Part shown: one piece after another, positions 18,204-59,056 of the stretch | Numbering within the stretch: the first letter of the stretch is position 1 | How the letters are laid out: the number at the start of each line of letters is the position of its first letter | Origin: Pseudomonas benzenivorans | Lineage (GTDB): Bacteria > Pseudomonadota > Gammaproteobacteria > Pseudomonadales > Pseudomonadaceae | Assembly (NCBI RefSeq): GCF_033547155.1 | Contig: NZ_CP137892.1 | Coordinates: 2,976,001 to 3,040,000, forward strand | Direction: 5' to 3' | DNA: 64,000 bases | Program-made: the position numbers and the translations under genes | Notes under the pieces: model-generated | Told to the model about the DNA's origin: nothing | Databases searched by the model: none | What the model saw: the letters and a program-made list of their open reading frames with translations, nothing else

Positions 18204-18753
18204 GGGGGCAAATCTGGGCACCGGCTGAACCCTATCAATCCGCCCCCCACTCAATCGGGCCGGCTCCATGCGCTGAAAGCACTCCTCTCATCAATAGAGG
18301 TAAGCTATTCAGGACGCTCCTCACGACACACCATAGCCAACCACTCAGTGTGGCTTGTATCGCCTAAGGATCGAGTCATCTATGACTGAGGCTCTGTTTT
18401 CAAGTAGCACTCGACACCAATAGGTGACGCAAGCCAGATCCACGTCAAGCCGGCGGAAGGCACCAATCTTTCCAGGATACGCACACCGAAAAAACCTCCC
18501 AGGTATGGTGCTGGTCGGGTGCTGGACAGGATTGAAATACCTGCCTCAACACTCAAGCCCTGGGAAACGGTGGGGCAGCGAGCAGACAAGAGCCATCAAA
18601 CATAATGGTGAAAGACTGAGGGCTTTCACTTCTTCGCCCATAAGAACACCTGAATGCCCAAGAAATTTAAATTAACATAACAACTGTTGCGCAAATTAAA
18701 GTCCACTGCTAGGCTCCGATTCACATAGGTGAAGACCCCCCGGAGAAAGCACC
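18204..18753. other. 550-bp tract between the IS element and the PhyH operon
   Basis: No gene is supported in 18218-18675. A 69-codon minus-strand frame (18380-18589) has no recognisable product. The last 80 bp carry the operator and promoter of the PhyH operon. Base composition here is lower in G+C than in the flanks, in keeping with accessory DNA. Confidence 0.45.
18676..18716 (+). promoter_or_regulatory. Operator-promoter of the PhyH/Rid/EthD operon
   Basis: The palindromic site CATAACAACTGTTGCG (18676-18691) fits CRtAAC-N4-GTTkYG. Its right half contains a -35-like TTGCGC (18688-18693), followed after 17 bp by a -10-like TAGGCT (18711-18716). The gene start is at 18754. A nearly identical arrangement lies upstream of the acyl-CoA dehydrogenase at 43490. 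A repressor bound here would cover the -35 element. Confidence 0.6.
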
Positions 18754-19587
18754 ATGCACGACTCTCTGCGCAAAGCGTTCCTAGAGGATGGGGCAGTCCT
18801 GATCAAAGGCCTGCTGAACAAGGAGCAACTGACCCGGTGTCGAGCGGCCTATGACTGGTCGGTGGAGAACCATGGCCCCCATGCCACCCGCATGTTCGAT
18901 GGGACGGTGCAGCAATCGCACGTCGACAACGCCAATCCACTGGCGAAGGAACGCCTAGAGGAGCTGGTTGCCTCCCTGCCCTTCGGCCAGCTGTTCGCCG
19001 ACCTCTGGGGTTCGAGCAATGTCTGGTATTTCGCCGAGGAAGTGTTCCTCAAGGCCGGCGGTCATGGAGCGCGTACGCTCTGGCACCAAGACACCTCCTA
19101 CCTGCCCTGGGCCGGTCAGCATTGGGGTAACGCCTGGATCAGCTTCGAATCGGTGCCCAAGCAGAACGCGCTGGAGATCATTCGTGGCTCGCACCGCGGC
19201 CCTCGCTTTGACGGGACCACCTTTTGCGATCCGAACGACCCGACCCAACCCCTGCATGGCCGCGGCGCCCTGCCCCGGCTGCCCGATATCGAGGCCGAAC
19301 GCAAGCTGAGCCCCGACGCCTACGACATCCTCTCCTGGGCCACCGAGCCCGGCGATGTGGTGCTGATCCACCCCGGCTCGCTGCATGGCGGCGCGCCTGT
19401 CGACCAGCACTTCCCGGATCGCCATACCTTCGTATTCCGTTTCTTCGGCGACGACGCAACTTTCCACCCACTGCCGGAGGAAAGCGAATCGGGCTATCCG
19501 AGGGAAGGCGTTCTGTTTACCGAGGAGCTGTCGAACCTGCAGCCGGGCGACCCGTTTCGCCACCCCACCTTCCGCCAACTCGTGTGA
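18754..19587 (+). CDS. Phytanoyl-CoA dioxygenase (PhyH) family Fe(II)/2-oxoglutarate oxygenase
   Basis: A 277-residue cytoplasmic oxygenase. The metal-binding facial triad is visible: H111 and D113 in WHQDTSY and H211 in HPGSLHGGAP. The 2-oxoglutarate-binding Arg is probably in HTFVFRFFG, downstream. PhyH proteins hydroxylate acyl-CoAs, ectoine, amines and other small substrates, so the substrate here is open. The gene is first in an operon with a Rid-family and an EthD-family protein. The ribosome-binding site is GGAG at 18742-18745. Confidence 0.87.
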   Translation: MHDSLRKAFLEDGAVLIKGLLNKEQLTRCRAAYDWSVENHGPHATRMFDGTVQQSHVDNANPLAKERLEELVASLPFGQLFADLWGSSNVWYFAEEVFLKAGGHGARTLWHQDTSYLPWAGQHWGNAWISFESVPKQNALEIIRGSHRGPRFDGTTFCDPNDPTQPLHGRGALPRLPDIEAERKLSPDAYDILSWATEPGDVVLIHPGSLHGGAPVDQHFPDRHTFVFRFFGDDATFHPLPEESESGYPREGVLFTEELSNLQPGDPFRHPTFRQLV

Positions 19588-19601
19588 TTGGAGATCTGCC
19601 G

Positions 19602-20018
19602 ATGAGTGTCCAAACCCCGAAGCGACAGCTGATCAATCCGCCACACACCCAGGTGTTCTACGACAACTTCCACTACTCCCAGGCGACACGCGTAGGGGAC
19701 ATGATCTGGGTGTCCGGTCAGGTCGGAATCGACGCCAGCATGACCCCTGGCAAGGATATCGAGGAGCAGGCGCACCTGGCGTTCCAGGCCCTGCAGACCA
19801 TTCTCGAAGCGGCTGGAGCCAGCCTGGCCGACGTCGTCGAGCTGATGACCTTCCATACCGAACTGCAAGCCGACATGCAGGGCTTCGCCCGGGTCAAGGA
19901 CCAGTATTTTCCCGACCGCTATCCATCCTGGACCGCGGTGGGCACCACGGAGCTGGCCCTGCCTGGCTTGCGCGTAGAAATTCGCGCGGTTGCGGTCGCA
20001 GGCTGCGGCGCGCCCTGA
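19602..20018 (+). CDS. Rid-family (YjgF/YER057c/UK114) protein lacking the catalytic Arg
   Basis: A 138-residue protein with the Rid fold: VGDMIWVSGQVGID near the N terminus, the AFQALQTILEAAGASLADVVELMTF core and RVEIRAVAV at the C terminus. In RidA the imine-hydrolysing Arg lies in a P-A-R-S motif. Here the matching segment is YPSWTAVGT, so Trp stands where Arg is expected. It is therefore probably not a 2-imino acid deaminase but one of the divergent Rid subfamilies, which often occur in catabolic operons. The start is preceded by GGAG at 19590-19593 and lies 14 bp after the PhyH gene. Confidence 0.85.
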   Translation: MSVQTPKRQLINPPHTQVFYDNFHYSQATRVGDMIWVSGQVGIDASMTPGKDIEEQAHLAFQALQTILEAAGASLADVVELMTFHTELQADMQGFARVKDQYFPDRYPSWTAVGTTELALPGLRVEIRAVAVAGCGAP

Positions 20019-20079
20019 TACACCTTCAGCCACAGCGCCTCATGCGCCCCGTTACATCACCAAAAACAAGGAACTACTC

Positions 20080-20376
20080 ATGGCCACCCTGATCGTCAGC
20101 TACCCCCTGACCGAAGGCTCGACCTTCGACCGGGACTACTATCTGTCCACCCATATCCCGATTGCCCAGGCCGCCTGGGGCGAATTCGGGCTGCAATCGG
20201 CCGAGATCCTCTTTCCAGCGTCTGCTCCGCAGCCCCTCGCAGGCCTGGTCATTCTTCGCTTCAAGGATCAGGCCAGTATCGATGCCGCGCTCAGCTCACC
20301 TGCGACGGCCAAGGTCATCGGCGACGTGGCGAATTTCACCAACATCGCTCCGCTGATCTTCCGCGCCAACGACTGA
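20080..20376 (+). CDS. EthD-family protein
   Basis: A 98-residue protein of the dimeric alpha-beta barrel EthD type (YDxDYYxxTHIPIAQ-like pattern: FDRDYYLSTHIPIAQAAW). EthD proteins are small helpers or enzymes in degradation operons, first named from ETBE degradation; precise activity is usually unknown. AAGGA lies 7 bases before the ATG. It is third in the PhyH-Rid-EthD operon, 61 bp after the Rid gene. Confidence 0.82.
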   Translation: MATLIVSYPLTEGSTFDRDYYLSTHIPIAQAAWGEFGLQSAEILFPASAPQPLAGLVILRFKDQASIDAALSSPATAKVIGDVANFTNIAPLIFRAND

Positions 20377-20415
20377 CCGATTGCGCGGCTGCCACACAAG
20401 CATTGCGACGCCCAG

Positions 20416-20571: not shown

Positions 20572-21285
20572 ATGTCCGACTCACAACTGCCCGCCTCCCC
20601 GACCAGTAACCGTAAAGCGCGCAAGAGCGAGTCGGAACCTGCGGCGCGCCGTGGACGCCCGGTGGGAGATCACAATGCCAAGCGCGCCGAACTGCTCAAT
20701 GCCGCCCTCAGGGTGATTGCACAGGAGGGCTACGCAGGCGCCTCAATGCGCAAGGTGGCACAGCAGGCCGGCTGCACCACAGGCGCCGTGACCTACTACT
20801 TTGCCAACAAAGAGGAAATGATCACCGCCGTGGCCCAGAGCCTGTTCGATGAGATCGACACCCTGCTGGAGATCAACCAGGAGCGGATCGACATCAAAGG
20901 GCTCGTTGGCCAGTGGCTTGACTCGATGGGCGGCGATGAACCGAACGGCTGGCTCGCCTGGCTGCAGTTGCTGGCCCACGCACGCCATGAGCCTGCCTTC
21001 GCCAGCGTCATCAAGCAGCGCTATGCACGCTTCCGCCAAGTGTTCACCGCGGTACTGGAAAAAGGCCAGAGCCAGGGCCTGATTCGAACCGATATCGCCG
21101 CTGACCTGCTCGCCGACCAGGTCAGCGCCATCAGCGATGGCTGGATGATGTTGATGCCGATCGAACCCGAGCGCTTCAGCGCGGAACGTGGTCAGGCCCT
21201 GCTCGACGCCCTGATCACCATGATCGCGCCGCCCAAGCCTGCACCCGCACGCAAGGTATCCGCCACGAAGGCCTCGGCCAAGTAA
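20572..21285 (+). CDS. TetR-family transcriptional regulator
   Basis: A 237-residue regulator. A basic, low-complexity N-terminal tail (about 40 residues) precedes the TetR helix-turn-helix (GASMRKVAQQAGCTTGAVTYYFANKEEM, split around residues 60-85). The C-terminal ligand-binding domain follows, and there is an Ala/Lys/Pro-rich tail. It is a single gene 195 bp after the EthD gene and before a polyamine-type binding protein. It is a candidate repressor for the surrounding amine catabolic genes. Start 20572 gives a long disordered tail; an internal start is possible. Confidence 0.85.
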   Translation: MSDSQLPASPTSNRKARKSESEPAARRGRPVGDHNAKRAELLNAALRVIAQEGYAGASMRKVAQQAGCTTGAVTYYFANKEEMITAVAQSLFDEIDTLLEINQERIDIKGLVGQWLDSMGGDEPNGWLAWLQLLAHARHEPAFASVIKQRYARFRQVFTAVLEKGQSQGLIRTDIAADLLADQVSAISDGWMMLMPIEPERFSAERGQALLDALITMIAPPKPAPARKVSATKASAK

Positions 21286-21328: not shown

Positions 21329-21493
21329 CTGTGAACCCTCCTAGAAAACCATAACACCGCACCCCATGAGCCGACGGCTCGTGAGGATCGCGCACGCCCC
21401 CTGATCAAGATCTACGGCAGGCTCAGGCCGTCCCACCGCGCTGAGGCATGCGCGGATAACGCTTTGCATGATCGCGAGGAGTACTGTATTTTG

Positions 21494-21526
21494 CATAACA
21501 GATGAGATAATAAATAAAACATCTGT
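21494..21526 (+). promoter_or_regulatory. Putative operator upstream of the binding-protein gene
   Basis: ACAGATG (21498-21504) and CATCTGT (21520-21526) form a perfect 7-bp inverted repeat with 22 bp between centres, ending 2 bp before the GGAGG ribosome-binding site. The left arm overlaps CATAACA (21494-21500), the half-site seen in the shared operator of this region. A regulator bound here could block transcription or the message could fold. Confidence 0.4.
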
Positions 21527-21537: not shown

Positions 21538-22629
21538 GTGAGAGCAGAAAGGAAAACGCAGTCGCCGTCCCTGAACGTCAAGACGCTAATTGTCCTTGCA
21601 TTGGCAGCCATTTCGGCCCAGGCGGTCGCGCAGGAAGTCGTGCGTGTGCACAACTGGGCCGACTATATCGATCCGGCCGTCGTGCAGGACTTCGAGCGCG
21701 AGACCGGCATCCGGGTCGACTACTCCACCTATACGAGCGCAGCCCAGCTGGAGGCCGATCTGGATTCGGGCGAACGCTTCGACGTGATAGTTCCCTCCGA
21801 TCTTCAGCTCGATCGCTTGATCAAAGAAAACCGACTGGCCCCGCTCGATTTCCGCGAGCTGCCCAATCGCAAAGAGATCAGTCGCGAACTGCTGCTCAGA
21901 CTCAACTCCAGAATCAACGCGGATCTGTACGCCATCCCCTACATGTGGGGCACGGTCGGCCTGGTCGTCCACGAGCGTGAAGCATCCCGCGCACTGCAGG
22001 CCCCTGTACCGAACAGTTGGAGCGTCTTGTTCGACCCGTCCAACGTCGACAAGCTGAGGTCCTGCGGCGTGATGCTACAGAACGAACCGGAACACAGCCT
22101 TTTCCTCTATCTGACTTACAAAGGCAAGAACCTGAAAACCAGCAGTGCGCGCAGCATCCACAAGGCCGTTCACGAGATCCGCAGCCTGAAACTGGCGGAC
22201 AGCCCGCAGCCATTCACCGCCTTCATCTCGCAGCTGGCCGACGGCAAGGTATGTGCCGCAATGGCCTGGAACGGACTCGCTTCGCTGGCCAACGAGAACG
22301 GCGAGCTGCGCTTTACCATTCCGCAAGAGGGCAGCCTGCAGTTCATCGACAGCCTGGCCATTCCCGGCAACGCAGGCAACGTACCGGCGGCGTACCGCTT
22401 CATCGATTACCTGCTGAAGCCGGAAAACGCGGTGCGTAATGCCAGGGCAAGCCACTTCCTGCCCAGCCTGGACCTGGATCGGGACGGCAATCGACATCTG
22501 CTGCCAGAGCTGGCCATGCCAACCCAGGATGAGCGGCGGCGCCTTTACCTCGGACAGCCGCTGTCCAATGACGAGCGTCGAACCATCGAATTGGCGTGGG
22601 CCGAGTCGGACGCCGACCGCCAGGACTGA
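21538..22629 (+). CDS. Orphan polyamine-type ABC substrate-binding protein (PotF/SpuE-like)
   Basis: A 363-residue periplasmic binding protein with a signal peptide (TLIVLALAAISAQAVAQ). The mature part begins EVVRVHNWADYIDPAVVQDFE and continues with FDVIVPSD and IPYMWGTVGLV, all typical of putrescine/spermidine-binding PotF and SpuE. No permease or ATPase gene is nearby, so it must borrow a transporter or act in sensing. It starts with GTG 5 bases after GGAGG (21528-21532). It sits between a TetR gene and an amine oxidase-cytochrome c pair, which fits a polyamine or related amine ligand. Confidence 0.85.
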   Translation: MRAERKTQSPSLNVKTLIVLALAAISAQAVAQEVVRVHNWADYIDPAVVQDFERETGIRVDYSTYTSAAQLEADLDSGERFDVIVPSDLQLDRLIKENRLAPLDFRELPNRKEISRELLLRLNSRINADLYAIPYMWGTVGLVVHEREASRALQAPVPNSWSVLFDPSNVDKLRSCGVMLQNEPEHSLFLYLTYKGKNLKTSSARSIHKAVHEIRSLKLADSPQPFTAFISQLADGKVCAAMAWNGLASLANENGELRFTIPQEGSLQFIDSLAIPGNAGNVPAAYRFIDYLLKPENAVRNARASHFLPSLDLDRDGNRHLLPELAMPTQDERRRLYLGQPLSNDERRTIELAWAESDADRQD

Positions 22630-22982
22630 GCCGCGAGCCGGGCTGGCGGTGCTCCTCGCATCACGCTCAGGGCTGCTACTGCCAGCGCAGCCCCCTAAGC
22701 CGCCCAGGCGCGGCGGTGACCGCCTCGCCAGATTCGAGGTGAGCGCTGCCATCAGCTCAGAAGCATGCCAGCGCCCGCCCCGACTACCACCAATCGCGCC
22801 GCCAGCCGGCCTAACCCCGTCTGCGCTACCTGCCCGCATCGACACGCAGCAGTGTGAGCACTCGAACCCTGCCCTTGCCCCTCACGAACGCCGCTCGTTT
22901 TCGCTTGGCGCCGGTTCGATTTCGATGTATTTTCGTAACAATCGTTTTGTTAATTACAAAAACCAGCATGACAGAGGCGAAG
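22630..22982. other. 350-bp promoter region of the amine oxidase pair
   Basis: No gene is supported. The first 250 bp are GC-rich without visible signals. The last 70 bp turn A+T-rich and contain the shared operator CGTAACAATCGTTTTG (22934-22949). Confidence 0.5.
22934..22949 (+). promoter_or_regulatory. Shared-type operator upstream of the amine oxidase
   Basis: CGTAAC-AATC-GTTTTG is an imperfect palindrome of the same form as the sites at 18676, 43553 and 59041, in the same direction relative to its gene, 34 bp before the ATG. Confidence 0.5.
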
Positions 22983-24464
22983 ATGATTTCAGACAACGAT
23001 GAACTGTCGCCCCCCGAGCGCCAGCGACGCTTGCTGCTGCAGGCGATCGGCGGCGCGACCTTGGTCGGTGGCCTGGCGCTCAGCGGACGAGTTCTCGGGG
23101 AAACGACGACCCGCCCCGACGAGGATGTGCTGGACGTCGCGATCATCGGCGCCGGCCTGGCCGGCCTGACCGCGGCGCGTGACCTGCAGCGCGCCGGCTG
23201 CGAGGCCTTCGTCGTGCTGGAGGCGCGGAACCGCGTCGGTGGGCGCACCTATAACCACGACCTGGGCAAGGGGGTCGTCTCGGAAGCCGGCGGCCAGTGG
23301 ATCGGCCCCGGCCAGACCGCCATCTTCGACCTGGCGCGCGAACTCGAGGTCGACACCTTCCCGACCTACTACCAGGGCAAGAACGTCTACCTGGCAGGCA
23401 CAGCCAAATACGCAGAGGACGTAACGCAGGCCGCCCACAGCCCACTCGTCGGGAAATTGAACGAGCTCGCCCGCGGCGTGCCGAGCAAGGCCCCCTGGGC
23501 GGCGGTAGATGCGGCGACGCTCGACAAGCTCTCGGTCGGCCAGTGGCTGGCGCAACAGGGCATCAGCAACGAAGAGAAATTCAGCTTCGATACGTCCATA
23601 GGGCTGACCACCGGCACCCCGCCCTCGAACCTGGCACTGCTGCACTACCTGTCGCTGATCAACTCCTCCGACTGCGACATGGTGAAGCTCGAGGGCTTCA
23701 CAGGCGGTGCCCAGGAGACCCGCTTGGTTGGCGGCGCCCAGATTCTCAGTATCAAGATGGCGGATGCCTTGGGCGACAAGGTCAGATTGTCGTGCCCGGT
23801 GCGCAAGATCGTCGGCTGGGATCGCGATGTCGTCGAACTGCATACCGACCAGGGCATCATCCGCGCCCGCCAGGTTATCGCCGCCCTGCACCCTGCCCTA
23901 TGCAACCAGATCAGTTTCGACCCGCCACTGCCCGGAGGTCGTGCGCAGTTGCAACGACTGTGGCCGTCCCACGCGCCGATGCGCAAGACCGTGCATGTCT
24001 ATGAGCGTCCGTTCTGGCGGGAGCAGGGCCTGAACGGCCAGATCAGCCAGACCAGCGGACCGTTGATCCTGTCCTACGACAACTCGCCTCCGGATGGCAG
24101 CGTCGGCGTCCTCAGCGCCTTCGTCCGAGCCGGTCAACTGCCTCAAGACGCCAAGCGCGCAGAGACCATCCTCACGGAGATCTACGCCCAGGCCTTAGGC
24201 GACGAGGCGCTGCATCCCACCCAGTTTCACGACCATGACTGGGGCAAGGTCGATCCCTGGACGCTGACCTGCGTCGCATCGATACCGCCCGGTTTCCTTA
24301 CCCAATGGGGTCAGTACCTGAAACCTTCGGTTGGCCGGCTGATCTGGTCCGGTACCGAAACGGCCGAAATCTGGGCCAGTTCGATGGACGGCGCGGTTCG
24401 CTCCGGCCAGCGGGCGGCGCTGGAAACCCTCCAGGCGCTGCTGCAACGTCGGAGGAGCGCCTGA
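22983..24464 (+). CDS. Tat-exported flavin amine oxidase/dehydrogenase (MAO family), copy 1
   Basis: A 493-residue flavoprotein. A twin-arginine signal (QRRLLLQAIGGATLVGG) directs it to the periplasm. The FAD dinucleotide fold is IIGAGLAGLTAARDL with VLEARNRVGGRT; the C-terminal FAD motif is SGTETAEIW. Relatives include putrescine oxidase, MAO and the nicotine dehydrogenase NicA2, which passes electrons to a cytochrome c. The next gene, overlapping by one base, encodes a diheme cytochrome c, so this is probably an amine dehydrogenase rather than an O2-using oxidase. The aromatic-cage Tyr of the family (GYM-DGAV) is replaced: S466-S467 stand at GY. GAGG at 22974-22977 supports the start. Confidence 0.88.
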   Translation: MISDNDELSPPERQRRLLLQAIGGATLVGGLALSGRVLGETTTRPDEDVLDVAIIGAGLAGLTAARDLQRAGCEAFVVLEARNRVGGRTYNHDLGKGVVSEAGGQWIGPGQTAIFDLARELEVDTFPTYYQGKNVYLAGTAKYAEDVTQAAHSPLVGKLNELARGVPSKAPWAAVDAATLDKLSVGQWLAQQGISNEEKFSFDTSIGLTTGTPPSNLALLHYLSLINSSDCDMVKLEGFTGGAQETRLVGGAQILSIKMADALGDKVRLSCPVRKIVGWDRDVVELHTDQGIIRARQVIAALHPALCNQISFDPPLPGGRAQLQRLWPSHAPMRKTVHVYERPFWREQGLNGQISQTSGPLILSYDNSPPDGSVGVLSAFVRAGQLPQDAKRAETILTEIYAQALGDEALHPTQFHDHDWGKVDPWTLTCVASIPPGFLTQWGQYLKPSVGRLIWSGTETAEIWASSMDGAVRSGQRAALETLQALLQRRRSA

Positions 24465-25141
24465 TGAAACGAGCACTAGTGATAGGCGCAGTCCTGGCGA
24501 CAGCCGCCCTGGCAGTATCGAGCGCGATATATGGCCCGGAAATAGTCGCGGGATACCGCTTCATGGAAGCCCTCGACCAACACTATGCGGACTACCAGGC
24601 CGATGGCGGCGCCTGGCCGCAACTGCAGGACAGCTGCGCCCTGTGCCACGGCGAAAGAGGCCAGTCCAACAACGCCCAGTACGCCTCCCTGGCCGGCCTG
24701 CCCGCCGCCTACATCGAGTCCCAGTTGCACGCCTTCGCCGAAGGCCGCAGGCACAGCCCGCAGATGAGCCCGCTCGCCGCGAGCCTGAGCGACCAACAGA
24801 TCCAGTCCCTGGCCGCCTACTTCGCCCGCCGGACGGCGCAAACGACCGAGAGGCCCGCCGACGACTCCGCTCTGGCGCAAAGCGGGCAAGTCACGATCGC
24901 CGCCAAGGGTTGTGCAAGCTGTCATGGCGAAGGCCTGGCCGGCGGCCCCCTTGGCCCGCGCCTCGCCGGCCAGAGCGAAGGCTATCTGATCGACCAGCTC
25001 AACGCCTTCAAGCACGGCCAGCGCCAGGATCCGGCCCAGGCCATGAACGCCATAGCCAGCACCCTATCGGCAGAGGAAATCAGGGCCACGGCCCACTTCC
25101 TGGCCGGCCAAGCGCCAGCTTCCCCCCAGGCCGCCAAGTAG
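24464..25141 (+). CDS. Diheme c4-type cytochrome c, partner of amine oxidase copy 1
   Basis: A 225-residue protein with an N-terminal signal or anchor (RALVIGAVLATAALAVSSAIY) and two cytochrome c domains with CALCH (C58) and CASCH (C150). Each domain has a following Met-containing segment (SPQMSPLAASLSDQQIQ and PAQAMNAIASTL) that can give the distal ligand. The layout is that of cytochrome c4. It would accept electrons from the amine oxidase in the periplasm and pass them to a terminal oxidase. Translation is coupled to the oxidase (TGATG overlap). It is paralogous to the protein at 33889-34545. Confidence 0.9.
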   Translation: MKRALVIGAVLATAALAVSSAIYGPEIVAGYRFMEALDQHYADYQADGGAWPQLQDSCALCHGERGQSNNAQYASLAGLPAAYIESQLHAFAEGRRHSPQMSPLAASLSDQQIQSLAAYFARRTAQTTERPADDSALAQSGQVTIAAKGCASCHGEGLAGGPLGPRLAGQSEGYLIDQLNAFKHGQRQDPAQAMNAIASTLSAEEIRATAHFLAGQAPASPQAAK

Positions 25142-33854: not shown

Positions 33855-33888
33855 AGCAATAGCCTCTATCAAATACTCAATCGATGGA

Positions 33889-34545: not shown

Positions 34546-34554
34546 CTTCGCCTC

Positions 34555-36027: not shown

Positions 36028-36048
36028 ACTGAGCGCCTCTCGCAGTTG

Positions 36049-36771: not shown

Positions 36772-36813
36772 AGATTCAGCTTCCAAAGAAATGATCGAAG
36801 TTGGCCGCCAGGC

Positions 36814-38184: not shown

Positions 38185-38195
38185 GGCAGGCGCTC

Positions 38196-39434: not shown

Positions 39435-39451
39435 CAGGAGACTCCTCGACT

Positions 39452-41011: not shown

Positions 41012-41021
41012 TGTCGTCACT

Positions 41022-42155: not shown

Positions 42156-42206
42156 TTCGAGTACCTCGTTTTGTTCTTGGATGAAGGTTCTGGTGGAGCG
42201 GGTGGA

Positions 42207-43490: not shown

Positions 43491-43500
43491 CTGACGCACC

Positions 43501-43829: not shown

Positions 43830-44885
43830 TCAGTCCCGGCTCGCCGTTCGCGCGGCGCGGTAGCGGCCAGGACTCATGCCGGTCCATTGGCGGAAGGCCC
43901 GGTGAAACGCGCTGGGCTCCTGAAAGCCGCAGCGGATGGCGATCTCGCTGATGCTCAGGCTGCTGTCGTTGAGATAGTCGAAGGCCAGCGCCTTGCGCAC
44001 CTCGTGCTTGAGCGCCTGATAGGAGAAGCCCTCGCGCTCCAGTTGTCGGCGAAAGGCCGACTCGCTCATGGCCACATCCAGGGCCATCTGGGTCTGCGAC
44101 GGCCAGTCCAGCTCGGGGGAGGCCTTCAGACGGCGATAGACGCCGGCCGCCAACCCAGCCCGATTGCGAAAGCGCACCACCACCCCTTCCGGCGCATGGC
44201 GCAGGAACTGCTTGAGGCTGGCGAAGTTGCGCACCGTCGGCAGGGACAACTGGGCGGCGCTGAACTCCACTTCGGTGCGCGGCGCATCGAACTCGATCCA
44301 GGGCCCCCAGAGCAGCGGATCGGCGCCATGGGGCGGCTGCGGATGGCCGAACTGGGTGTGATCCAGATTGATCCGGCGCCCTACCAGCCAACAGGCCACG
44401 CCGATCACCATGCTCAGGTAGATCTCCTCGGCGACGCTGCGGATGGCCTTATCCGCGATGCGGTTCTGCAGCACTATGGCGGCACGATTGCCACGCAGTT
44501 CCAGGTGCGCGTGGATATCCCGCAGGAACAGGTTGAAGCCGGACAGGCACTGGCGCAGCGCTCGCCGCAGATCCGGCTCGTGCACGACGCTGCGGCAGAT
44601 GATGGCGAAGGCGCCGCGGGGCATGCCTCCCGAGTCGAAGGCGAAGAACTCGTCGCCCAGCTCCTCGGTGAGCAGCAGCCATAGCCGCGCGACCGCCTCG
44701 GCCGGCACCCGCTGCGACGGATCGTCGAGCCGGGCAGACTCGATGCCGGCCTCACGCAGCAGCGCCTCGGCGCGTTGCGGCGCATGGGCCAAGCGGTGCA
44801 CGGCCGCCTTGACGAAATAGACCGCCACCGAATCACCCTTGCGGACGGCTCGTTCGTCAGAGCGCCCCGTACTAGAGGTTTTCAT
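43830..44885 (-). CDS. AraC-family transcriptional regulator
   Basis: A 351-residue regulator. The first 220 residues match the Arabinose_bd-type sensor domain (SVVHEPDLRRALRQCLSGFNLF, IYLSMVIGVACWLVG) common in AraC proteins of lipid and amino-acid catabolism. The C-terminal helix-turn-helix pair includes QTQMALDVAMSESAFRRQLE and CGFQEPSAFHRAFRQWTGMSPGRYR. It is divergent from the thiolase gene at 45001, so thiolase control is likely; the nine-gene operon on its other side is a further candidate. Start 44885 is chosen; the frame continues upstream without a better start. Confidence 0.86.
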   Translation of the reverse strand: MKTSSTGRSDERAVRKGDSVAVYFVKAAVHRLAHAPQRAEALLREAGIESARLDDPSQRVPAEAVARLWLLLTEELGDEFFAFDSGGMPRGAFAIICRSVVHEPDLRRALRQCLSGFNLFLRDIHAHLELRGNRAAIVLQNRIADKAIRSVAEEIYLSMVIGVACWLVGRRINLDHTQFGHPQPPHGADPLLWGPWIEFDAPRTEVEFSAAQLSLPTVRNFASLKQFLRHAPEGVVVRFRNRAGLAAGVYRRLKASPELDWPSQTQMALDVAMSESAFRRQLEREGFSYQALKHEVRKALAFDYLNDSSLSISEIAIRCGFQEPSAFHRAFRQWTGMSPGRYRAARTASRD

Positions 44886-44898
44886 AACACTCGATATG
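44883..44898 (+). promoter_or_regulatory. Weak match to the shared operator between AraC and thiolase genes
   Basis: CATAACACTCGATATG has the left half-site CATAAC and the ACTC spacer of the site at 59041, but the right half is degenerate (GATaTG for GTTaCG). It overlaps the AraC start codon and lies about 100 bp upstream of the thiolase gene. Confidence 0.25.
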
Positions 44899-45000
44899 TC
44901 CAAATTCGTCAGCCGCACCTGCGCAATTCTGGCATAGGAGACGGCCGGCCTCACGCCCTAGACTCGCGGTCATTCCACTACCGAACCAGGAGCGTCTCGG

Positions 45001-52262: not shown

Positions 52263-53228
52263 TCACTGGCCCTGTGCGGCTATCACGCCGCGCCGGGAGA
52301 ACAGAACGGGTCGATCACCGCCAGCGAGCAGAGCGGCGGTCAGCGAGACCCCATCCACGGTGTCATTCCGCTGGAATGAGCGGCCCCCATCGCGGCTATG
52401 CACCAGCAAACCGTCGAGACCTGCGACCAGCACCTGGCGTCCCGCAGCGACTATGGAGGTGACCGAGCTCTTGCTCTGCAGGGGCACGCGCTGCCAGCTA
52501 CGCCCGTCTGCCGAGCCATGCAGCAGCGTGCCGCGCTGGCCACCGACCAGTAGCGAGCCATCGGCCAGCGCCGCGCCCGACCACAGGGTGCCCTCATAGC
52601 CGGTGTCCAGATAGCGCCAGCGCCTGCCGAAGTCGACGGAATGCAGCACCTGGCCGCGCTCCGCGGTGGCATACAGGCCGCCCTTGGCGTCGGCGAACAA
52701 CCCCATCAGGTTGAGGTCGGCCCGGCCATAGCCCGCCGGCGCCTCCAGCCTCTGCTCGCGCCAGGTCTGCCCGCCGTCGTCGGTGGTCAGCACCAACGAC
52801 CAGAGACCGACGGCGACCCCCTGCCGGGCATTGAAGAAGTGCACGGCGAACAGCGGGCGGTCCTCTTCGCTGGACAACCGCTGGATCTGCCAGGAGTCGC
52901 CGCCGTCGCTGCTGGCCAGGATCGCCCCCCAATGACCGACCGCCCAGCCATGCTGCGCGTCGGCGAAGCTGACCCCGGTCAGCGGCGTGGAAACCGGTAC
53001 CGAGCCGGCCTGGCGAAAGCTCTGGCCCTGGTCGTCGGACAGCAGCACCACGCCATGGTCGCCCACGGCTACCATGCGCCCGCCGGCCCAATCGGCATCG
53101 AGCATGGTCGCCGCGCTGGCATGGCTCGCCGGCACGGCCCGCTCGGCGCGCAGCGGTTGCGCCTGCACGCTGGCGAGCGGCAGCGCTGCCGCGAGCAGCG
53201 CACCCATCAAGAAAAACGCGTATCGCAT
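52263..53228 (-). CDS. YCF48/BNR-repeat periplasmic protein
   Basis: A 321-residue secreted protein: signal peptide (YAFFLMGALLAAALPLASVQAQ), then six to seven beta-propeller blades with YCF48/sialidase-like Asp-box patterns (SDDQGQSFRQAG, SSDGGDSWQIQ, TTDDGGQTWRE, SADGRSWQRV, SRDGGRSFQRN). YCF48-type proteins assist assembly of membrane complexes; here one is encoded directly after an MmpL-like pump, 11 bp away, and probably works with it. This gene neighbourhood is seen in clusters for breakdown of hydrophobic compounds. Confidence 0.88.
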   Translation of the reverse strand: MRYAFFLMGALLAAALPLASVQAQPLRAERAVPASHASAATMLDADWAGGRMVAVGDHGVVLLSDDQGQSFRQAGSVPVSTPLTGVSFADAQHGWAVGHWGAILASSDGGDSWQIQRLSSEEDRPLFAVHFFNARQGVAVGLWSLVLTTDDGGQTWREQRLEAPAGYGRADLNLMGLFADAKGGLYATAERGQVLHSVDFGRRWRYLDTGYEGTLWSGAALADGSLLVGGQRGTLLHGSADGRSWQRVPLQSKSSVTSIVAAGRQVLVAGLDGLLVHSRDGGRSFQRNDTVDGVSLTAALLAGGDRPVLFSRRGVIAAQGQ

Positions 53229-53239
53229 CTGCTCTCTCC

Positions 53240-55654
53240 TCAATGCGCCAGGGCGCCGATCATGCGCACCGGGCGCTTGCGCGGGAACACCCGCTCCAGC
53301 CAGACGGCGAAGGCCGGCAGTACGGTCATGGCCATGACCATGTTGACCATGAACATGAAGGCCAGCAGCTTGCCCATGTCGGCTTGGAACTTGAGCTCGG
53401 AGAACGCCCAGGTGGCGACGCCGATTGCCAGGGTGATGGCGGTGAAGATGGTCGCCACGCCGACCTCAAGCAACGCATGCTCGACGGCCTTGACGATCGG
53501 CTGACCACTGGCCTGGTGCAGCTGCAGGCGGTTGTAGATGTAGAAGGCGTAATCGACTCCGATACCCACCGCGAGCACCATCACCGGCAGGGTGGCGATG
53601 GTCAGACCGATCTGCAGCTCCTTCATGAACCAGTAGCCGATGAAGGTGCCGATGGTCAGCGGCAGGCAGCACACCAGCACGGCGCGCAGGTCCCGGTAGA
53701 CGACGAACACCAGAAGCGCGATGGCCGCGTAGACATACAACAACATCGGTGTCTCGCTCTTCTCCACCTCCTCATTGATTGCCGCCAGCACCCCAGCATT
53801 GCCCGAGGCCAGGCGTACCGAGACGCCCGGCATGGGGAACTCGGCGCGAAACGCCTTAGCCGCCTCAAGCACGCGGTTAATGGTCGTCGCCTTGTGGTCC
53901 GCCAGGTACAGGTGCACGGCAGTCATGCTGCAATCGGCGCGCATGATTCCCGAAATACGCGCGACCTCGGTAGCCAGCGAGGAGTAGTTCATGGCATCGA
54001 TGGGAACCGCACTCATCTTCGGATTACCCTCGTTGTAACCCTCATTGAACTGGCGCATGCCGGTGGAGAAGGAGGCGACCGACAGCACCCCGGGAATGCC
54101 CTGCATGGCCCAGACGAAGCGATCCTGGTATTGCCCCAGGGCAACGTTCTCGCAGGCGCCAGTAACCTCACCGGACTCATCCGGCGCGATCTCGAAGACC
54201 ACGCTGAGCCAGTCCAGACCGATGTCGTAGCTACCGGCGATGGACACCGCATCGCGGTTGAAACGAGCGTCCTCACGCAACTCCGGCGCACCGGCCTGCA
54301 ACGTACCGACGACCCGATCATGGCTCTGCCAAATCGCCGCTATGAACACCAGCAGGGCGGCGCCGAGCACCAGCAGGGCATTGCGCCATTCGGCGAGGCG
54401 CGCCAGCCCATGCAACCAGCGTGCACGGCGTTCACGGGAGACCTCCTCGGCGCTGGCGTAGCTCCCGTCGACCTTCAGCATCGAGGCCACCAGCGGCAGC
54501 ATCACCAGGTTGGTGACAATCTTGTAGGCCACGCCGAGCGACGCGGTGATGGCCAGCTCGCGCACCATCGGAATGGGGATCAGCAGCAGCGTGACGAAGG
54601 ATACGAAAGCCGTCACCAGCGCCAGGGTGCCCGGAATCAGCAGGCCGCTGAAGCTGGAACGGGCCGCCTCCTCAGCGCTCTTGCCGCAGGCGATCTCCCG
54701 CACGATGTAGTTGATCTGCTGCACACCGTGGGACACGCCGATGGCGAACACCAGAAACGGCACCAGCACAGCCAGCGGATCGAGGCCGTAGCCGAGCAGG
54801 CGCAGGCTGCCGAACTGCCAGATGAGCGAGGTCAGCGAGCAGCCGAGCGCCAGCAGGGTGAAGCGCACGGAATGGCAGTACCAGTAGACCGCCGCCGCGG
54901 TCAGCAGCAGCGCCAGCAGGCAGAACTCCAGCACAGCCGACGCACCGTCGGCGATATCGCCGATCTGCTTGGCGAAACCGATTATCTGGATCTCGAACGC
55001 CTCGTCCTCGAACTGCGCCCGAATCTGCTGCTCCAAAACCTGGTTGTAGGCCACATAGTCCAGCTGCTGGCCATTTTCATCGAGCTCGTTGAGTTCGGCG
55101 GTAATCATCGCGCTGCTCTGATCGCGCGCCACCAGGGTGCCGATGAAACCGCCCTGGGCCGTGGAGTTGGCGATCTTGTCGATGATCTTCTGATCGAGAC
55201 GCTCGGGCGTCACGGTGCCGGGGATCAAGGGGTCGGCGCGAAAGCCCTCCTCGGTGATCTCGTTGACGAAGGAGTTGGGCGTCCACAACGACTGCACGGT
55301 GCTGCGCGAGACCCCGGGCAGGAAGGTCACTGCCTGGGTCACCTCGTACAGCCGCTTGAGCCCGGCCACGCTCCAGATCGAGCCGTCGCGGGCCTTGACC
55401 ACTATGGTCAAGCGATTCGCCCCGATCAGGTCGGTGCGGTAGGTCTGGAAGGTCTCGACGTATTCATGACCTATAGGCAACTGCTTCTCGAAGCCCGCAT
55501 CCATGCGCAGCTGCACGGCAAACCAGGCCATGCCTAGAGTGAAGAGAGCGAGCAACACCAGAACCAGCCGGCGCTGGCGAAACAGCCAGCCCTCGAGGCG
55601 TGGCAGCACGCCACGCCCCCTCTGGTCGGACTTATCTACAACAGGAGTATTCAC
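53240..55654 (-). CDS. RND/MmpL-type transporter
   Basis: A protein of about 804 residues with the RND plan: one N-terminal helix, a periplasmic domain, five helices, a second helix-domain-five-helix half. Membrane motifs include VFAIGVSHGVQQINYI in the first half and VMVLAVGIGVDYAFYIYN in the second. It belongs to the shorter MmpL/HpnN-like branch that moves lipids and hydrophobic compounds rather than the AcrB branch. It is third in the operon after DUF1329 and DUF1302. The start is GTG: 55654 has GAGG 6 bases upstream; GTG 55666, overlapping the DUF1302 stop, is an alternative. Confidence 0.88.
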   Translation of the reverse strand: MNTPVVDKSDQRGRGVLPRLEGWLFRQRRLVLVLLALFTLGMAWFAVQLRMDAGFEKQLPIGHEYVETFQTYRTDLIGANRLTIVVKARDGSIWSVAGLKRLYEVTQAVTFLPGVSRSTVQSLWTPNSFVNEITEEGFRADPLIPGTVTPERLDQKIIDKIANSTAQGGFIGTLVARDQSSAMITAELNELDENGQQLDYVAYNQVLEQQIRAQFEDEAFEIQIIGFAKQIGDIADGASAVLEFCLLALLLTAAAVYWYCHSVRFTLLALGCSLTSLIWQFGSLRLLGYGLDPLAVLVPFLVFAIGVSHGVQQINYIVREIACGKSAEEAARSSFSGLLIPGTLALVTAFVSFVTLLLIPIPMVRELAITASLGVAYKIVTNLVMLPLVASMLKVDGSYASAEEVSRERRARWLHGLARLAEWRNALLVLGAALLVFIAAIWQSHDRVVGTLQAGAPELREDARFNRDAVSIAGSYDIGLDWLSVVFEIAPDESGEVTGACENVALGQYQDRFVWAMQGIPGVLSVASFSTGMRQFNEGYNEGNPKMSAVPIDAMNYSSLATEVARISGIMRADCSMTAVHLYLADHKATTINRVLEAAKAFRAEFPMPGVSVRLASGNAGVLAAINEEVEKSETPMLLYVYAAIALLVFVVYRDLRAVLVCCLPLTIGTFIGYWFMKELQIGLTIATLPVMVLAVGIGVDYAFYIYNRLQLHQASGQPIVKAVEHALLEVGVATIFTAITLAIGVATWAFSELKFQADMGKLLAFMFMVNMVMAMTVLPAFAVWLERVFPRKRPVRMIGALAH

Positions 55655-55662
55655 AGCATGCC

Positions 55663-57339
55663 TCACATCGAGTGCGAAATCGCCAGGCCAACGTAATCCC
55701 GATCACGCAGCAACTGGTCGTAAGGGGTATCGCCATCGTTGAACTTCGCGTAGTTCAAACTGACTTGCCAGTTACCCGGGTTGCGCACGAGGTTGAGATA
55801 CAGGTTCATCGCGCTGGAGTCCCGCGTATAGGTCGAATAGATCGATGGCGTGCGGCCGTTGCCCAGGGAGCGCTGGTAGTAGATACCCGGCGTCACAGTC
55901 CAGCCCGGGATCAGGGTGCTGTCATAGGTCAGGCTGAAGTCGAGGTGAATCCCCGAGGAGGTCGCATCGCCGTGGGCCTTGGGCGGGAACTGCGACAGAT
56001 CTTCCACCCAGGTGTTGCCTCCCGCAGCGACCAGCTCACCGTCGTAGCTGTCGTGCAGCCCCGGATACTTCACCAGCACCAGTTCCGACAGGAAGGTACC
56101 GGTGCTCGCCCCGGTGAAGTCGAGGAAGTCCGGGGAGTTGGCGTTGGTCAGGCTGTAGATACCCGTCAGGTGCCACTGGAATTTCTTGGTGTCCTTCCAG
56201 CACTCCCCTCCCCGCCCCGAACAAGGCGCTGGGCCAAAGGCGAGACCGGGCAAGGGGTTGAGCGGCACCGCCTCCTTGGGTCGATAGGACAGCTCGGTAC
56301 CCACGGCCCAATCGCCGACCGGCAGGTTGGCACTGATGCCATAGAGCATGCGGTCTTCCGGGTAGACCCAGGTGGGCGCGAACGTGGCCTGGTTGTAGCT
56401 CACCTGCGGCAGCTTGTCGTGATAGCGCATCACATAGAAGCCATAGTTGACGTCGCTGTCCTCCGGCTGCCAGCGCACCGAGAGTCCCCACTGACCGCTG
56501 TCACGGGCATCCTTGTCGTCGTAGCCGTAGGCTTCCAGGCCCTCGCCGATCACGTTGTAGGTCGACCAGTAGCTGCCCACTGGCGGCAGTTCGCTCTTGT
56601 TCCAACCGAACTGGTAGTAGGCCTCGACGTTCACGCCGTAACCGAGCCCGGTGGCGACGCTGAGCATCGGCGCCGGCAGCACGGCTTCCTTGAGCTGTAC
56701 CCCCGGGCTCGAGAGGGCCTGGAAGTCATAGGAGTTGGTGGCGTTGACGCCACCGATGGCGAACAGGCTCTCGCCCCAGTTGATCACCTGGTTGCCCAGG
56801 CGCGCCCGCACCCGGTGGTCTGCCACATCGAAGCTCTTGCTCACCCACAGGTCGAGCAGGCGCGCCTTGAACCTGAGCTCATCGCGCGCGTCGTCGGTCA
56901 GCCCGTCGCTGCCGATATCCGAGCCCATGGCCTGCCAGAACTGCGTTTCGGCACCCAACGCCCCCGTGGTGTCGGTGGCGGCGAAGTCACGCTTCCAGCT
57001 GCCACGCGCCATGAAGGTGAAGTCCTCGGGAAACTTCAATACCAGTTCGTGAACGCCCTTGATGTAATTGGTGAACAAGTCGCCCTTGCCGTAGTTGAGG
57101 TTGCCCTGATCGCCGATACCGGAGACGGTCGGATCCAGACATCCACCAGGAGCGCCGTGCCCGGTCGCACCGGCGTTGATCAGATCGCACCCCGGAGACT
57201 GGGTGCGCACCCCCATGCCCCAGCCAATGGTGGAATCGAACGAACCGCGGATATTCTCCGTCTCGAAGGTGAAGCCCATGGCCAGCGGTGCTGTGCACGC
57301 AATGACCAGACCTGATGCTTTAGAAATTATTCTTTTCAT
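55663..57339 (-). CDS. DUF1302 outer-membrane protein, copy B
   Basis: A 558-residue protein with a signal peptide (ASGLVIACTAPLAMG) and a beta-rich DUF1302 body: FETENIRGSFDSTIGWGMGV, VRARLGNQVINWGES, SGQWGLSVRWQ and GISANLPVGDWAVGTELSY. It resembles copy A (30979-32850) in order of motifs. Cys residues in the loops (GCDLI, GGCLD, PCSGRGGECW) may form disulfides. It is likely an outer-membrane channel or receptor for the substrate handled by the RND pump encoded next. GGGAG lies 7 bases before ATG 57339. Confidence 0.85.
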   Translation of the reverse strand: MKRIISKASGLVIACTAPLAMGFTFETENIRGSFDSTIGWGMGVRTQSPGCDLINAGATGHGAPGGCLDPTVSGIGDQGNLNYGKGDLFTNYIKGVHELVLKFPEDFTFMARGSWKRDFAATDTTGALGAETQFWQAMGSDIGSDGLTDDARDELRFKARLLDLWVSKSFDVADHRVRARLGNQVINWGESLFAIGGVNATNSYDFQALSSPGVQLKEAVLPAPMLSVATGLGYGVNVEAYYQFGWNKSELPPVGSYWSTYNVIGEGLEAYGYDDKDARDSGQWGLSVRWQPEDSDVNYGFYVMRYHDKLPQVSYNQATFAPTWVYPEDRMLYGISANLPVGDWAVGTELSYRPKEAVPLNPLPGLAFGPAPCSGRGGECWKDTKKFQWHLTGIYSLTNANSPDFLDFTGASTGTFLSELVLVKYPGLHDSYDGELVAAGGNTWVEDLSQFPPKAHGDATSSGIHLDFSLTYDSTLIPGWTVTPGIYYQRSLGNGRTPSIYSTYTRDSSAMNLYLNLVRNPGNWQVSLNYAKFNDGDTPYDQLLRDRDYVGLAISHSM

Positions 57340-57360
57340 GTCGGCTCCCAAAGTTCGCAA

Positions 57361-58785
57361 TTAGCGTTCGCTGATGGTCCGCAGGTTGTCGGAGGTGTAG
57401 AAGTCGCGCTTCATACGCGGGTTACCTTCGCTCTCGGTTAACCAGCGGTGATCCTTCTTACCCACGCCTATGGAGGTCATGTCGTACAGGTAGCGCCCAT
57501 CCACAAGGTTGTACTGGACCTGGGCCGCGACATCGCAGCTGCCGGTCTCGTAGACCGGGATCAGGTGACCTTCGCGCACCTTCCAGATCTGCCCTTGCTT
57601 GTCGTAGTCGACGGCCAAAAGGCCATTCCAGCTGTCTTCATCGATGTAGAAGACCCGCTTCGGCGCCTGGTGACGCATACCCTGACGAACCGTGGCCTCG
57701 ACGACCCAGACACGATGCTGCTCGTAGCGACGGTACTCGGGGGCGAAATAGTCGGGCTGGGCCACATCATCGATCTTGGCCGAGGTGTCATAGGCGCCGA
57801 ACGCGTTGTAGGGCACGATCAGTTCCTGCTTGCCAACCAGTTTCCAGTCGAAGCGATCCAGAGGGCCGTAGAAGATGTTCGACTCATCGATGGTGTACTG
57901 GTTGTCGAGACCGATCTGCGGCGCGTCGTAGGAGTAGGCGGGCATACGACGTACGCGACGCTGACCGGGGAAGTAGTAGAAGGTGGTGGTCTCCTCACCG
58001 GCCTTGGTGTTCAGCACACCGGCCTGCCCGGCCAGGGACACCGGGTCGTAGTAGCTGAAATAGGTGGCGGTTTCCAGCCGGTCATGGGACGAGAACAGCG
58101 AACTGCCCTTCTCCCCCCACGGGGTGTACATGTTCCAGTCCAGCGAGGTACGCAGCCAGTCACCACCGGCCTTGCGCGGCGAGATGCCGGAGATCGTCTT
58201 GGCCATGACGAAGCCCACGCCGCGGTAATGCATTTTCATGTTCCACATCACCTCGGCACCGGTGGTGGGCATGGGGAAAGGAATTCCCGGGACATGAGCT
58301 TCCTGCAAGGCCAGGCCATCACCGTCCAGGGTGGCGAAGCCAACGTTCTTCTTGGTGTTCTCGGCGACGAAATCCGGCACGCCACAGCTGCGGCGGGTGG
58401 GGTAGACATCCATGCGGAAGCCCGGGAGCTTCTTGAACAGCTCCAGTTGGGCGGGCGACAGCTTGCTCGAATACTGCGAGACATTGCTGGCATCGATGCT
58501 ATAGAGCGGCTTGTCATCCTTGAACTTCCAGTGCTGACCACGCACCTCGCCGTAGGTCCAGTCTCCGCCCTGCGGGCCAGGTGGAGTCCATGCCGGAATC
58601 GCCCCATCGGCGCTTGCCGCTGCCTCTGCTCCCAACGGAGTCAGCTTGGTACCTAGCAATGCAGGATCCTTCTCCGCAGCTTGAACCGCACAGATGGCGG
58701 CAGATGTCGCCAATGCCACGACCAGATGCCTTGCGCCAGTGAAGGTGGAGATACCGAGGCGCGAGTACTCAATTACTTCATTCAT
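57361..58785 (-). CDS. DUF1329 periplasmic protein, copy B
   Basis: A 474-residue exported protein; the hydrophobic signal (LVVALATSAAICAVQAA) starts near residue 21. DUF1329 motifs match copy A: LTPLGAEAAASADGAIPAWT, RRVRRMPAYSYDAPQ, DRFDWKLVGKQELIVPYN and KRVFYIDEDSWNG. It is the first gene of a four-gene operon (DUF1329, DUF1302, RND, YCF48), the order reversed relative to copy A. ATG 58785 follows GAGGA. A GTCAA-rich operator array lies 75-112 bp upstream. Confidence 0.86.
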   Translation of the reverse strand: MNEVIEYSRLGISTFTGARHLVVALATSAAICAVQAAEKDPALLGTKLTPLGAEAAASADGAIPAWTPPGPQGGDWTYGEVRGQHWKFKDDKPLYSIDASNVSQYSSKLSPAQLELFKKLPGFRMDVYPTRRSCGVPDFVAENTKKNVGFATLDGDGLALQEAHVPGIPFPMPTTGAEVMWNMKMHYRGVGFVMAKTISGISPRKAGGDWLRTSLDWNMYTPWGEKGSSLFSSHDRLETATYFSYYDPVSLAGQAGVLNTKAGEETTTFYYFPGQRRVRRMPAYSYDAPQIGLDNQYTIDESNIFYGPLDRFDWKLVGKQELIVPYNAFGAYDTSAKIDDVAQPDYFAPEYRRYEQHRVWVVEATVRQGMRHQAPKRVFYIDEDSWNGLLAVDYDKQGQIWKVREGHLIPVYETGSCDVAAQVQYNLVDGRYLYDMTSIGVGKKDHRWLTESEGNPRMKRDFYTSDNLRTISER

Positions 58786-58859
58786 TGGAAAGTCCTCATG
58801 GGGCTTTTACCGGCGACCCGAGCGTCCTGGCAGGGAGAGTCGGGCTGTGCCACACTTTT

Positions 58860-58897
58860 AGTCAATTGACTTGATCGCTTGACCAAGTCAATTGAAC
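58860..58897. promoter_or_regulatory. GTCAA/TTGAC operator array upstream of the DUF1329 operon, copy B
   Basis: A perfect 12-bp palindrome AGTCAATTGACT (58860-58871) is followed by TTGAC-CAA-GTCAA (58880-58892) and a second near-palindrome AAGTCAATTGAA (58885-58896). At least five copies of the half-site lie on one face or alternate faces of the helix. It is a likely repressor or activator binding region. Confidence 0.55.
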
Positions 58898-58987
58898 AAA
58901 GCAAGACACATGCCATCCAAGTTAACGAAATTACTCCTTATTTTTCATATACTTATGATTAATTAAACAGCACCGATGGCGATACCC

Positions 58988-59039
58988 AAATACCCAGAAC
59001 GCACCAATCCAGACCGCACCCGCACCATTCTGGGTATTT
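58988..59039. repeat. 12-bp perfect inverted repeat in the DUF1329/TetR divergent region
   Basis: AAATACCCAGAA (58988-58999) and TTCTGGGTATTT (59028-59039) are exact reverse complements separated by 28 bp. The right arm ends next to the shared-type operator at 59041. Confidence 0.7.
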
Positions 59040-59040
59040 A

Positions 59041-59056
59041 CGAAACACTCGTTACG
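59041..59056 (-). promoter_or_regulatory. Shared-type operator in the DUF1329/TetR divergent region
   Basis: CGAAAC-ACTC-GTTACG on the plus strand; on the minus strand CGTAACGAGTGTTTCG followed by TAAAT, which aligns closely with the site at 43568-43553. It could serve the leftward DUF1329 operon, the rightward TetR gene or both. Confidence 0.5.

Follow-up and report, generated by a model that had tools for sequence, protein, structure and literature searches.

Are the amine oxidase and acyl-CoA genes of one locus in Pseudomonas benzenivorans switched by a single regulator, and if so by which one? We addressed this question in a window of 64,000 nucleotides (NZ_CP137892.1, positions 2,976,001 to 3,040,000; coordinates below count from its first letter). 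An earlier note, made from the sequence alone, had reported four 16-bp palindromic sites fitting CGnAAC-N4-GTTnYG or its complement, upstream of a PhyH operon, an amine oxidase gene, a nine-gene operon and a DUF1329 operon, and had named two TetR-family proteins, starting at 20572 and 59195 (here TetR_A and TetR_C), as candidate binders. Sequence comparison strongly supports one operator and one regulon for these genes, through genome-wide specificity, conservation and co-occurrence with one regulator. Between the two candidates it favours TetR_A and disfavours TetR_C, which pairs with a different palindrome of its own. The operator and the regulon are very probably real, conserved and controlled by TetR_A.

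All four sites lie where they had been placed (18676-18691, 22934-22949, 43553-43568 and 59041-59056). In the window the 16-bp pattern gives 5 strand matches against 0.23 expected, a number reached in 0 of 100 shuffles; in the whole genome it occurs at 10 distinct places, 4 of them inside the window, and the reversed-pattern control gives 5 per strand. Genome-wide, this short pattern is only moderately specific. The 16-bp sites are, however, the cores of a longer 26-bp palindrome, ATTTnCGnAACAnTYGTTnYGnWAAT, which with up to 3 mismatches is found at exactly four places in 4,500,624 bases, all in the window (control 0). The genome scan suggested in the earlier note thus spoke against the short form as a specific mark and in favour of the extended one. 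A symmetrised palindrome has zero-mismatch matches at the same four places only; allowing 2 mismatches brings in 43564-43589, which overlaps the third site, plus one other place, with a control of 2 per strand. A scoring matrix built from the four window sites alone found nothing scoring at least 5 in the 20 kb before and the 36 kb after the window.

The four places, each an exact match to a 26-bp element that is very probably an operator, are operator 1 (18671..18696, minus strand, score 43.8), upstream of PhyH-RidA-EthD-TetR_A; operator 2 (22929..22954, plus strand, 43.5), upstream of amine oxidase 1 (AO1); operator 3 (43548..43573, plus strand, 43.6), upstream of the minus-strand nine-gene operon; and operator 4 (59036..59061, plus strand, 40.4), between the DUF1329 operon and TetR_C, whose start codons are 263 bp (minus strand) and 146 bp (plus strand) away, respectively. 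That one operator recurs at several operons and is scarce in the rest of the genome is the pattern of a single regulator. The AAATT previously seen next to two of the sites proved to be the outer arm of the palindrome. The claim that all sites are oriented the same way relative to their genes had to be dropped: the 16-bp pattern lies on the strand opposite the gene at 18676 and 43553 and on the gene's strand at 22934, where the claim breaks, and the 59041 site fits it on both strands.

The operator was then traced through the loci of TetR_A relatives. Searching with four aligned TetR_A orthologues yielded 170 relatives, and the best 80 were taken as loci; 67 (L070-L136) were counted as relatives, and the 13 weakest (L137-L149), whose matches are weak, served as controls. 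With a score of at least 20 as the main threshold, the four-site matrix identified 123 sites in 61 of the 67 loci, whereas 100 column-permuted matrices averaged 0.25 and never exceeded 2, and the best scores in the control loci did not exceed 13.0. Such sites are present in 39 of 41 loci from outside Pseudomonas. Ninety-five of the 123 lie no more than 150 bp upstream of a predicted open reading frame (ORF) start, against a background of 12%, and 93 lie outside ORFs, a figure that is approximate because the ORF set was crudely selected. They precede orthologues of PhyH, amine oxidase, DAO or TetR_A in Pseudomonas, Marinobacter, Cupriavidus, Variovorax, Streptomyces, Nocardia, Rhodococcus and others; a position directly upstream of TetR_A, often between it and a divergent PhyH, is seen in many loci from actinobacteria and elsewhere. 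Logos of the Pseudomonas sites (n=50) and of the other sites (n=73) agree, the same matrix having selected both. Conservation in relatives, put forward earlier as a test, therefore came out in favour of the operator, with sites kept upstream of orthologous operons. The peptide YYFANKE served as a search pattern, so its conservation in the recognition region of TetR_A is a biased observation. A pattern search of relatives allowing 3 mismatches matched 33 of 144 genomes, with control counts of similar size, and pointed to G057, G025 and G007; it is not used as a count because many of the matches look like chance. Further stretches were examined in six of the 144 (G007, G025, G031, G042, G045 and G057).

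BetI represses a catabolic locus locally, through a palindromic operator, and TetR_A (20572..21285, plus strand) resembles repressors of the BetI and TetR_C_6 type in having an N-terminal helix-turn-helix and the C-terminal domain type common to both. It scores 52.2 bits against PF00440 (TetR_N; cut-off 24), which places it in the TetR family, and 61.8 bits against PF13977 (TetR_C_6; gathering score 27), which gives it a BetI-type C-terminal domain. It is nevertheless not BetI, since it reaches 61.4 bits against an equivalog cut-off of 201.3, and its locus has a different gene set, with no bet genes among the proteins scanned. An AlphaFold2 model from a 38-sequence alignment is all-helical (mean pLDDT 79.8, pTM 0.67), and in a Foldseek search of the PDB its first 15 matches are regulators (20-24% identity), most of them carrying a TetR label. 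Some of these entries contain choline or benzamidine, which fits an amine-like ligand for TetR_A but does not show one. For a third TetR of the window, at 46307 (TetR_B), similar genes occur in two relatives' loci only (L094 and L135).

Co-occurrence was assessed in a genus survey of 398 genomes, source genome included, in which TetR_A is found in 19, PhyH in 12, DUF1329 in 24 and TetR_C in 21. All 12 PhyH genomes also carry TetR_A, and a site scoring at least 10 lies beside TetR_A in 17 of its 19 genomes. Upstream of DUF1329, a site scoring at least 20 is present in 16 of 17 genomes with TetR_A, G422 being the exception, and in 0 of 7 without it; counted by locus, TetR_A genomes have such a site at 16 of 22 DUF1329 loci, and the other five are second DUF1329 copies. 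The operator thus co-occurs with one regulator across species and is missing where that regulator is missing, with DUF1329 variants and two genomes (G031 and G042, see below) as exceptions. Plasmids add to this picture. Five Burkholderiales plasmid loci, from 8 records with PhyH, hold much of the same enzyme set, have no adjacent TetR_A and contain 0 sites scoring at least 15. Two of these five plasmids do encode a TetR_A homologue elsewhere, clustered with a second PhyH, and at those clusters sites are present; among six plasmid TetR_A loci (of 7 records), five have sites scoring at least 15. As sites are absent beside the plasmid enzymes and present at the plasmid TetR_A clusters, the site follows the regulator and not the enzymes.

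The position of the sites over promoter elements argues for repression. At the PhyH and nine-gene operons the palindrome overlaps the -35 box, and both -35/-10 pairs proposed earlier are present: the right half of operator 1 forms the -35 in TTGCGC-N17-TAGGCT, and operator 3 provides that of TTGCGT-N17-TAGAGT. At AO1 the overlap is with the -10, as the left edge of operator 2, TATTTT, fits a -10 located 17 bases downstream of TTGGCG. The site centre is 70-73 bp from the ATG in 21 of 22 PhyH promoters from the window and Pseudomonas loci; the 22nd, in L086, has no site scoring at least 15 near PhyH and was left out, which leaves the window promoter and 20 from the 21 PhyH-bearing Pseudomonas loci. 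In these 21 promoters the right half begins GTTG, the -35 is TTGCGN in 17, TTGTGT in 2 and TTGTCN in 2, and exactly 17 bases after it comes TAGNNT in 20 and TACGCT in one (L073). Among 19 AO1 promoters, hand-picked from relatives' loci, the left edge is TATTTT or alike, which fits a -10, and in 17 of them the ATG is 40-42 bp away.

Taken together, it is highly likely that the four sites are operators of TetR_A, a putative repressor of the TetR family with a BetI-type ligand domain. TetR_A, as a dimer or two dimers, would bind a 26-28 bp palindrome with the consensus ATTTaCrtAACAnnTGTTayGtaAAT. Since this operator holds the -35 hexamer at PhyH and the nine-gene operon and the -10 at amine oxidase 1, the bound repressor would exclude RNA polymerase, and the promoter layout suggests repression by such blocking, lifted by a putative ligand. 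That ligand is probably either the substrate amine or an early pathway intermediate; it would free the operator and switch on together uptake, periplasmic amine oxidation to cytochrome c, the PhyH/RidA steps and CoA-dependent breakdown. Lying behind PhyH, RidA and EthD on one strand, TetR_A probably controls itself. Binding, repression, ligand and substrate are what we infer from the observed sites, their genome-wide specificity and conservation, the promoter geometry and the co-occurrence.

Several observations weigh against TetR_A as the common regulator. The site nearest TetR_A is weak (12.1) in the source genome and in G278, and no site lies near TetR_A in G347 or in G425, where the locus is cut short by the contig; the TetR_A of the Cupriavidus P-10 plasmid likewise has no site nearby. 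Six of the 67 TetR_A loci are without a site scoring at least 20. G031 and G042, which have no TetR_A and were chosen for pattern matches, each carry a single site (20.6 and 20.3, respectively) with none of the window's genes nearby. Because the genomes have common ancestry, the counts are not independent. The half-sites noted earlier at 21494 and 44883 are weak as well, scoring 12.1 and 14.7 against 40.4-43.8 for the four; the first of them does have counterparts in relatives, just downstream of TetR_A. Two further points concern the DUF1329 operon. Operator 4 lies 263 bp from the DUF1329 start and about 130 bp above a sigma54-like element in the window, and a variant palindrome upstream of DUF1329 persists in three genomes without TetR_A, with scores of 16.8-18.4.

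The DUF1329 site is accordingly the less certain and weakest part of the one-regulon claim, and the alternative that survives best is built on it: TetR_A would run the PhyH, AO1 and nine-gene operons, and the 59041 site would mainly be read by something else, such as an activator of the sigma54-like promoter or an undetected TetR. We consider this possible, though rather unlikely. The sigma54-like promoter of the DUF1329 operon lies at 58901..58915 on the minus strand (TGGCATGTGTCTTGC, GG-N10-GC) and is followed by the palindrome attributed to TetR_C. Of 29 DUF1329 orthologues, 26 have the element TGGCA-N6-TTGC at -122 to -137, against a shuffled rate of 0.0014, and this conserved GG-N10-GC at a fixed place marks it, as a sequence element, as sigma54-like. 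In relatives, sites scoring at least 20 lie at -238 to -268 of DUF1329, with one extra at -138. The variant palindrome, GGAAACAnnTGTTAC(C/T), stands at about -238 of DUF1329 copies not tied to TetR_A (L183, L181, L182, L190, L191 and L192); besides the three genomes without TetR_A, it is present at second DUF1329 copies in three genomes with it. The distant site, the sigma54-like promoter and the variant palindrome without TetR_A thus indicate that another protein may read the position of operator 4, and the promoter and the variants make control of this operon probably multiple. Against this alternative, the 59041 site is a full match, outer arms included, that scores 40.4, scores of at least 20 at DUF1329 occur in TetR_A genomes only, and the window proteins scanned (from 17 kb on) included no recognisable sigma54 activator. 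Control of the DUF1329 operon by TetR_A, probably joined by further control through the sigma54-like promoter and the TetR_C palindrome, remains our preferred reading.

That TetR_C (59195..59818, plus strand; TetR by Pfam, divergent from the DUF1329 operon) is the shared repressor is very improbable, even though the 59041 site adjoins it and both TetRs are often found in one genome (15 of 398). Of the TetR_C loci, 9 of 16 in genomes with TetR_A have a site scoring at least 20 beside TetR_C, compared with 0 of 6 in the other genomes, and sites persist in G007, which has TetR_A and no TetR_C match. TetR_C pairs instead with a palindrome found in the window at 58862..58895 on the minus strand (TCAATTGACTTG-N10-CAAGTCAATTGA). 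In DUF1329 leaders this palindrome, GACnTGGTCAnnTGATCAnGTC, is present in 20 of 29 orthologues, at -103 to -109 and with 0-2 mismatches. Counted by genome, 20 of 20 that have DUF1329 together with TetR_C carry it, and 0 of 4 that have DUF1329 alone. When up to 4 mismatches are allowed, it also lies upstream of TetR_C in 12 of 22 TetR_C loci, the copy in L209 being that of the divergent DUF1329 leader, and in 11 of the 13 TetR_C loci without a TetR_A site scoring at least 20. Elsewhere in the source genome it has one 2-mismatch place 12 kb past the window end (L226:16430-16453; G000:C1:3052430) and one at another place. With a palindrome of its own, and no 26-bp sites at its loci in genomes without TetR_A, TetR_C was rejected as the binder of the 26-bp operator.

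Slightly less probable still is that the sites are targets of PsrA or of another global fatty-acid TetR with a similar core. The PsrA motif of Pseudomonas, (G/C)AAAC-N2-4-GTTT(G/C) (PMC3510223), resembles GAAACACTCGTTAC at 59041, and operator and motif share an AAC-N4-GTT core and a TetR-family regulator. They differ in the base at position 6 of the half-site, which is A or G in 95% of Pseudomonas and 91% of other sites and T in the PsrA motif, in the extra outer arms of the operator, and in the restriction of the extended motif to one locus of the genome. Sites also lie beside TetR_A in Streptomyces and Nocardia, and TetR_A scores 30.5 bits against a PsrA equivalog cut-off of 300. PsrA was rejected on this score and on position 6. 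Chance or composition, with AT-rich intergenic palindromes picked by eye, is a negligible explanation, for although the short 16-bp form occurs at 6 other genome places, the shuffle and permutation controls, the specificity of the 26-bp form and its conservation all refute it.

The genes of the proposed regulon are consistent with amine catabolism linked to acyl-CoA metabolism. Behind operator 1, all on the plus strand, are a PhyH family dioxygenase (18754..19587; PF05721), whose nearest solved relative is MysH, an Fe/2-oxoglutarate (Fe/2-OG) dioxygenase; a RidA family protein, a probable imine deaminase (19602..20018; PF01042), which reaches 71.1 bits against TIGR00004, under its cut-off of 106.25; an EthD family protein (20080..20376; TIGR02118 over cut-off); and TetR_A. 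The PhyH operon is adjoined by an IS1595-like transposase gene (17231-18193). A PotF-like (putrescine-binding) periplasmic protein (21538..22629, plus strand; Pfam, with PotF as PDB relatives) sits behind the weak site at 21488..21515. Operator 2 precedes AO1 (22983..24464, plus strand; PF01593 and PDB relatives) and its partner, a c-type cytochrome ORF with two CxxCH motifs (24305..25141, plus strand; Pfam), whose true start is probably internal. The nine-gene operon (33189..43499, minus strand; Pfam matches for 7 of 9 genes), taken as a single operon from gene order and strand, encodes an acyl-CoA dehydrogenase, a DUF5938 dehydrogenase, an AMP ligase, a thiolase, DAO, a membrane protein, amine oxidase 2, a cytochrome c and a second membrane protein; the two membrane proteins have no family match and contain transmembrane-like stretches. 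The two amine oxidases are 59% identical, and both start with RR-containing, export-like N-termini, which suggests amine oxidation in the periplasm with electrons passing to cytochrome c. Pfam scans of the neighbours in actinobacterial and other TetR_A loci gave no pathway identity. Lastly, a DUF1329-DUF1302-RND-YCF48 operon (52263..58785, minus strand; Pfam) lies below operator 4. TGGTGCG-like elements are repeated at 58970-59035, between the 59041 operator and the sigma54-like promoter, and are possibly activator sites.

Pairing of a flavin amine oxidase with a c-type cytochrome, as at AO1, is reportedly also a feature of the NicA2/CycN nicotine oxidation of Pseudomonas putida S16; to our knowledge, that system has no PhyH, CoA ligase or TetR_A-type regulator. 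The 52263-58785 operon resembles AmeABCD of Castellaniella defragrans, where DUF1302, DUF1329, COG4447 (YCF48-like) and RND genes lie together and are linked to monoterpenes; unlike here, the available passages on AmeABCD describe no shared operator (PMC6394551). The RGP10 cluster of a crude-oil Pseudomonas aeruginosa combines DUF1329, DUF1302, RND, glycosyl hydrolase, FAD oxidoreductase, PhyH and TetR genes, but it is called a possible alkane cluster, and the passages available assign it no operator or regulator (PMC7145413). A predicted aromatic-compound regulon of Betaproteobacteria includes a DUF1302 protein, PF07044, COG1033 exporters, COG4447 and the phytanoyl-CoA dioxygenase COG5285; TetR is not mentioned in the portion of the source available, and the likeness is one of gene content (PMC6449761). 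DUF1302/DUF1329 proteins are needed on Tween 20 in P. putida (PMC10866462). Among open-licence papers we found none describing this operator or regulon and no match for the substrate, an absence that is not proof.

Our results point to a catabolic switch that is ordinary in kind but undescribed. An orphan amine/acyl-CoA gene set can now be viewed as a defined regulon: its operator is precise, it has a named candidate for its regulator, and it brings its own readout. Reporters made from the operator-promoter pairs could serve to find the inducer, and hence the substrate of a pathway present on chromosomes and plasmids of many bacteria. Two TetR proteins otherwise open to confusion are told apart, and a DUF1302/DUF1329 transport operon is tied to a regulator. 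More tentatively, and with somewhat more doubt than belief, we suggest that one regulator, through a 26-bp operator nearly unchanged across phyla, governs an undescribed pathway from a hydrophobic amine to acyl-CoA in Pseudomonadota and Actinomycetota, made up of exported flavin amine oxidases with cytochrome c, an Fe/2-OG PhyH enzyme, RidA, CoA ligase, thiolase and Ame-type envelope transport. The regulator would travel with its operators, the same enzymes on Burkholderiales plasmids would run without them, and the envelope operon would have two gates, TetR_A on the one hand and TetR_C at a sigma54-like promoter on the other.

Minor sites accompany the four operators. An overlapping second site at 43563..43590 (plus strand, score 19.3, 2 mismatches to the symmetrised form) has one good half (TTGTTATGTTAATT) and is centred 16 bp from operator 3; the same spacing recurs in L073 (17849) and L079 (6685), from different species, and this half-site may bind a further dimer. 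The weak asymmetric site at 21488..21515 (plus strand, score 12.1), upstream of the PotF-like protein, has AO1-like geometry, with a distance of 36.5. The weak site at 44877..44904 (plus strand, score 14.7) lies between an AraC gene and thiolase-TetR-acyl-CoA dehydrogenase genes; in L056 the ACAD2 orthologue has a site upstream.

Strong operator matches were also seen at L128:15504 and L133:15504 (40.7 and 38.5). The L128 match, in Nocardia, is upstream of an FMN-dependent dehydrogenase gene and suggests further pathway members. In Vibrio proteolyticus (L120:16630) a strong match lies upstream of a winged-helix regulator with a ToxS-like partner. Within the window, a large YobI-like P-loop NTPase gene (25396-29187) lies between amine oxidase 1 and a DUF1302/DUF1329 pair (29599-32931), and 61153-63972 encodes the C-terminal part of an RND efflux pump that runs past the window end. 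Next to TetR_A in Vibrio, Photobacterium and Marinobacterium stand RND pumps 72-82% identical to it; Vibrio and Photobacterium also have operators close by.

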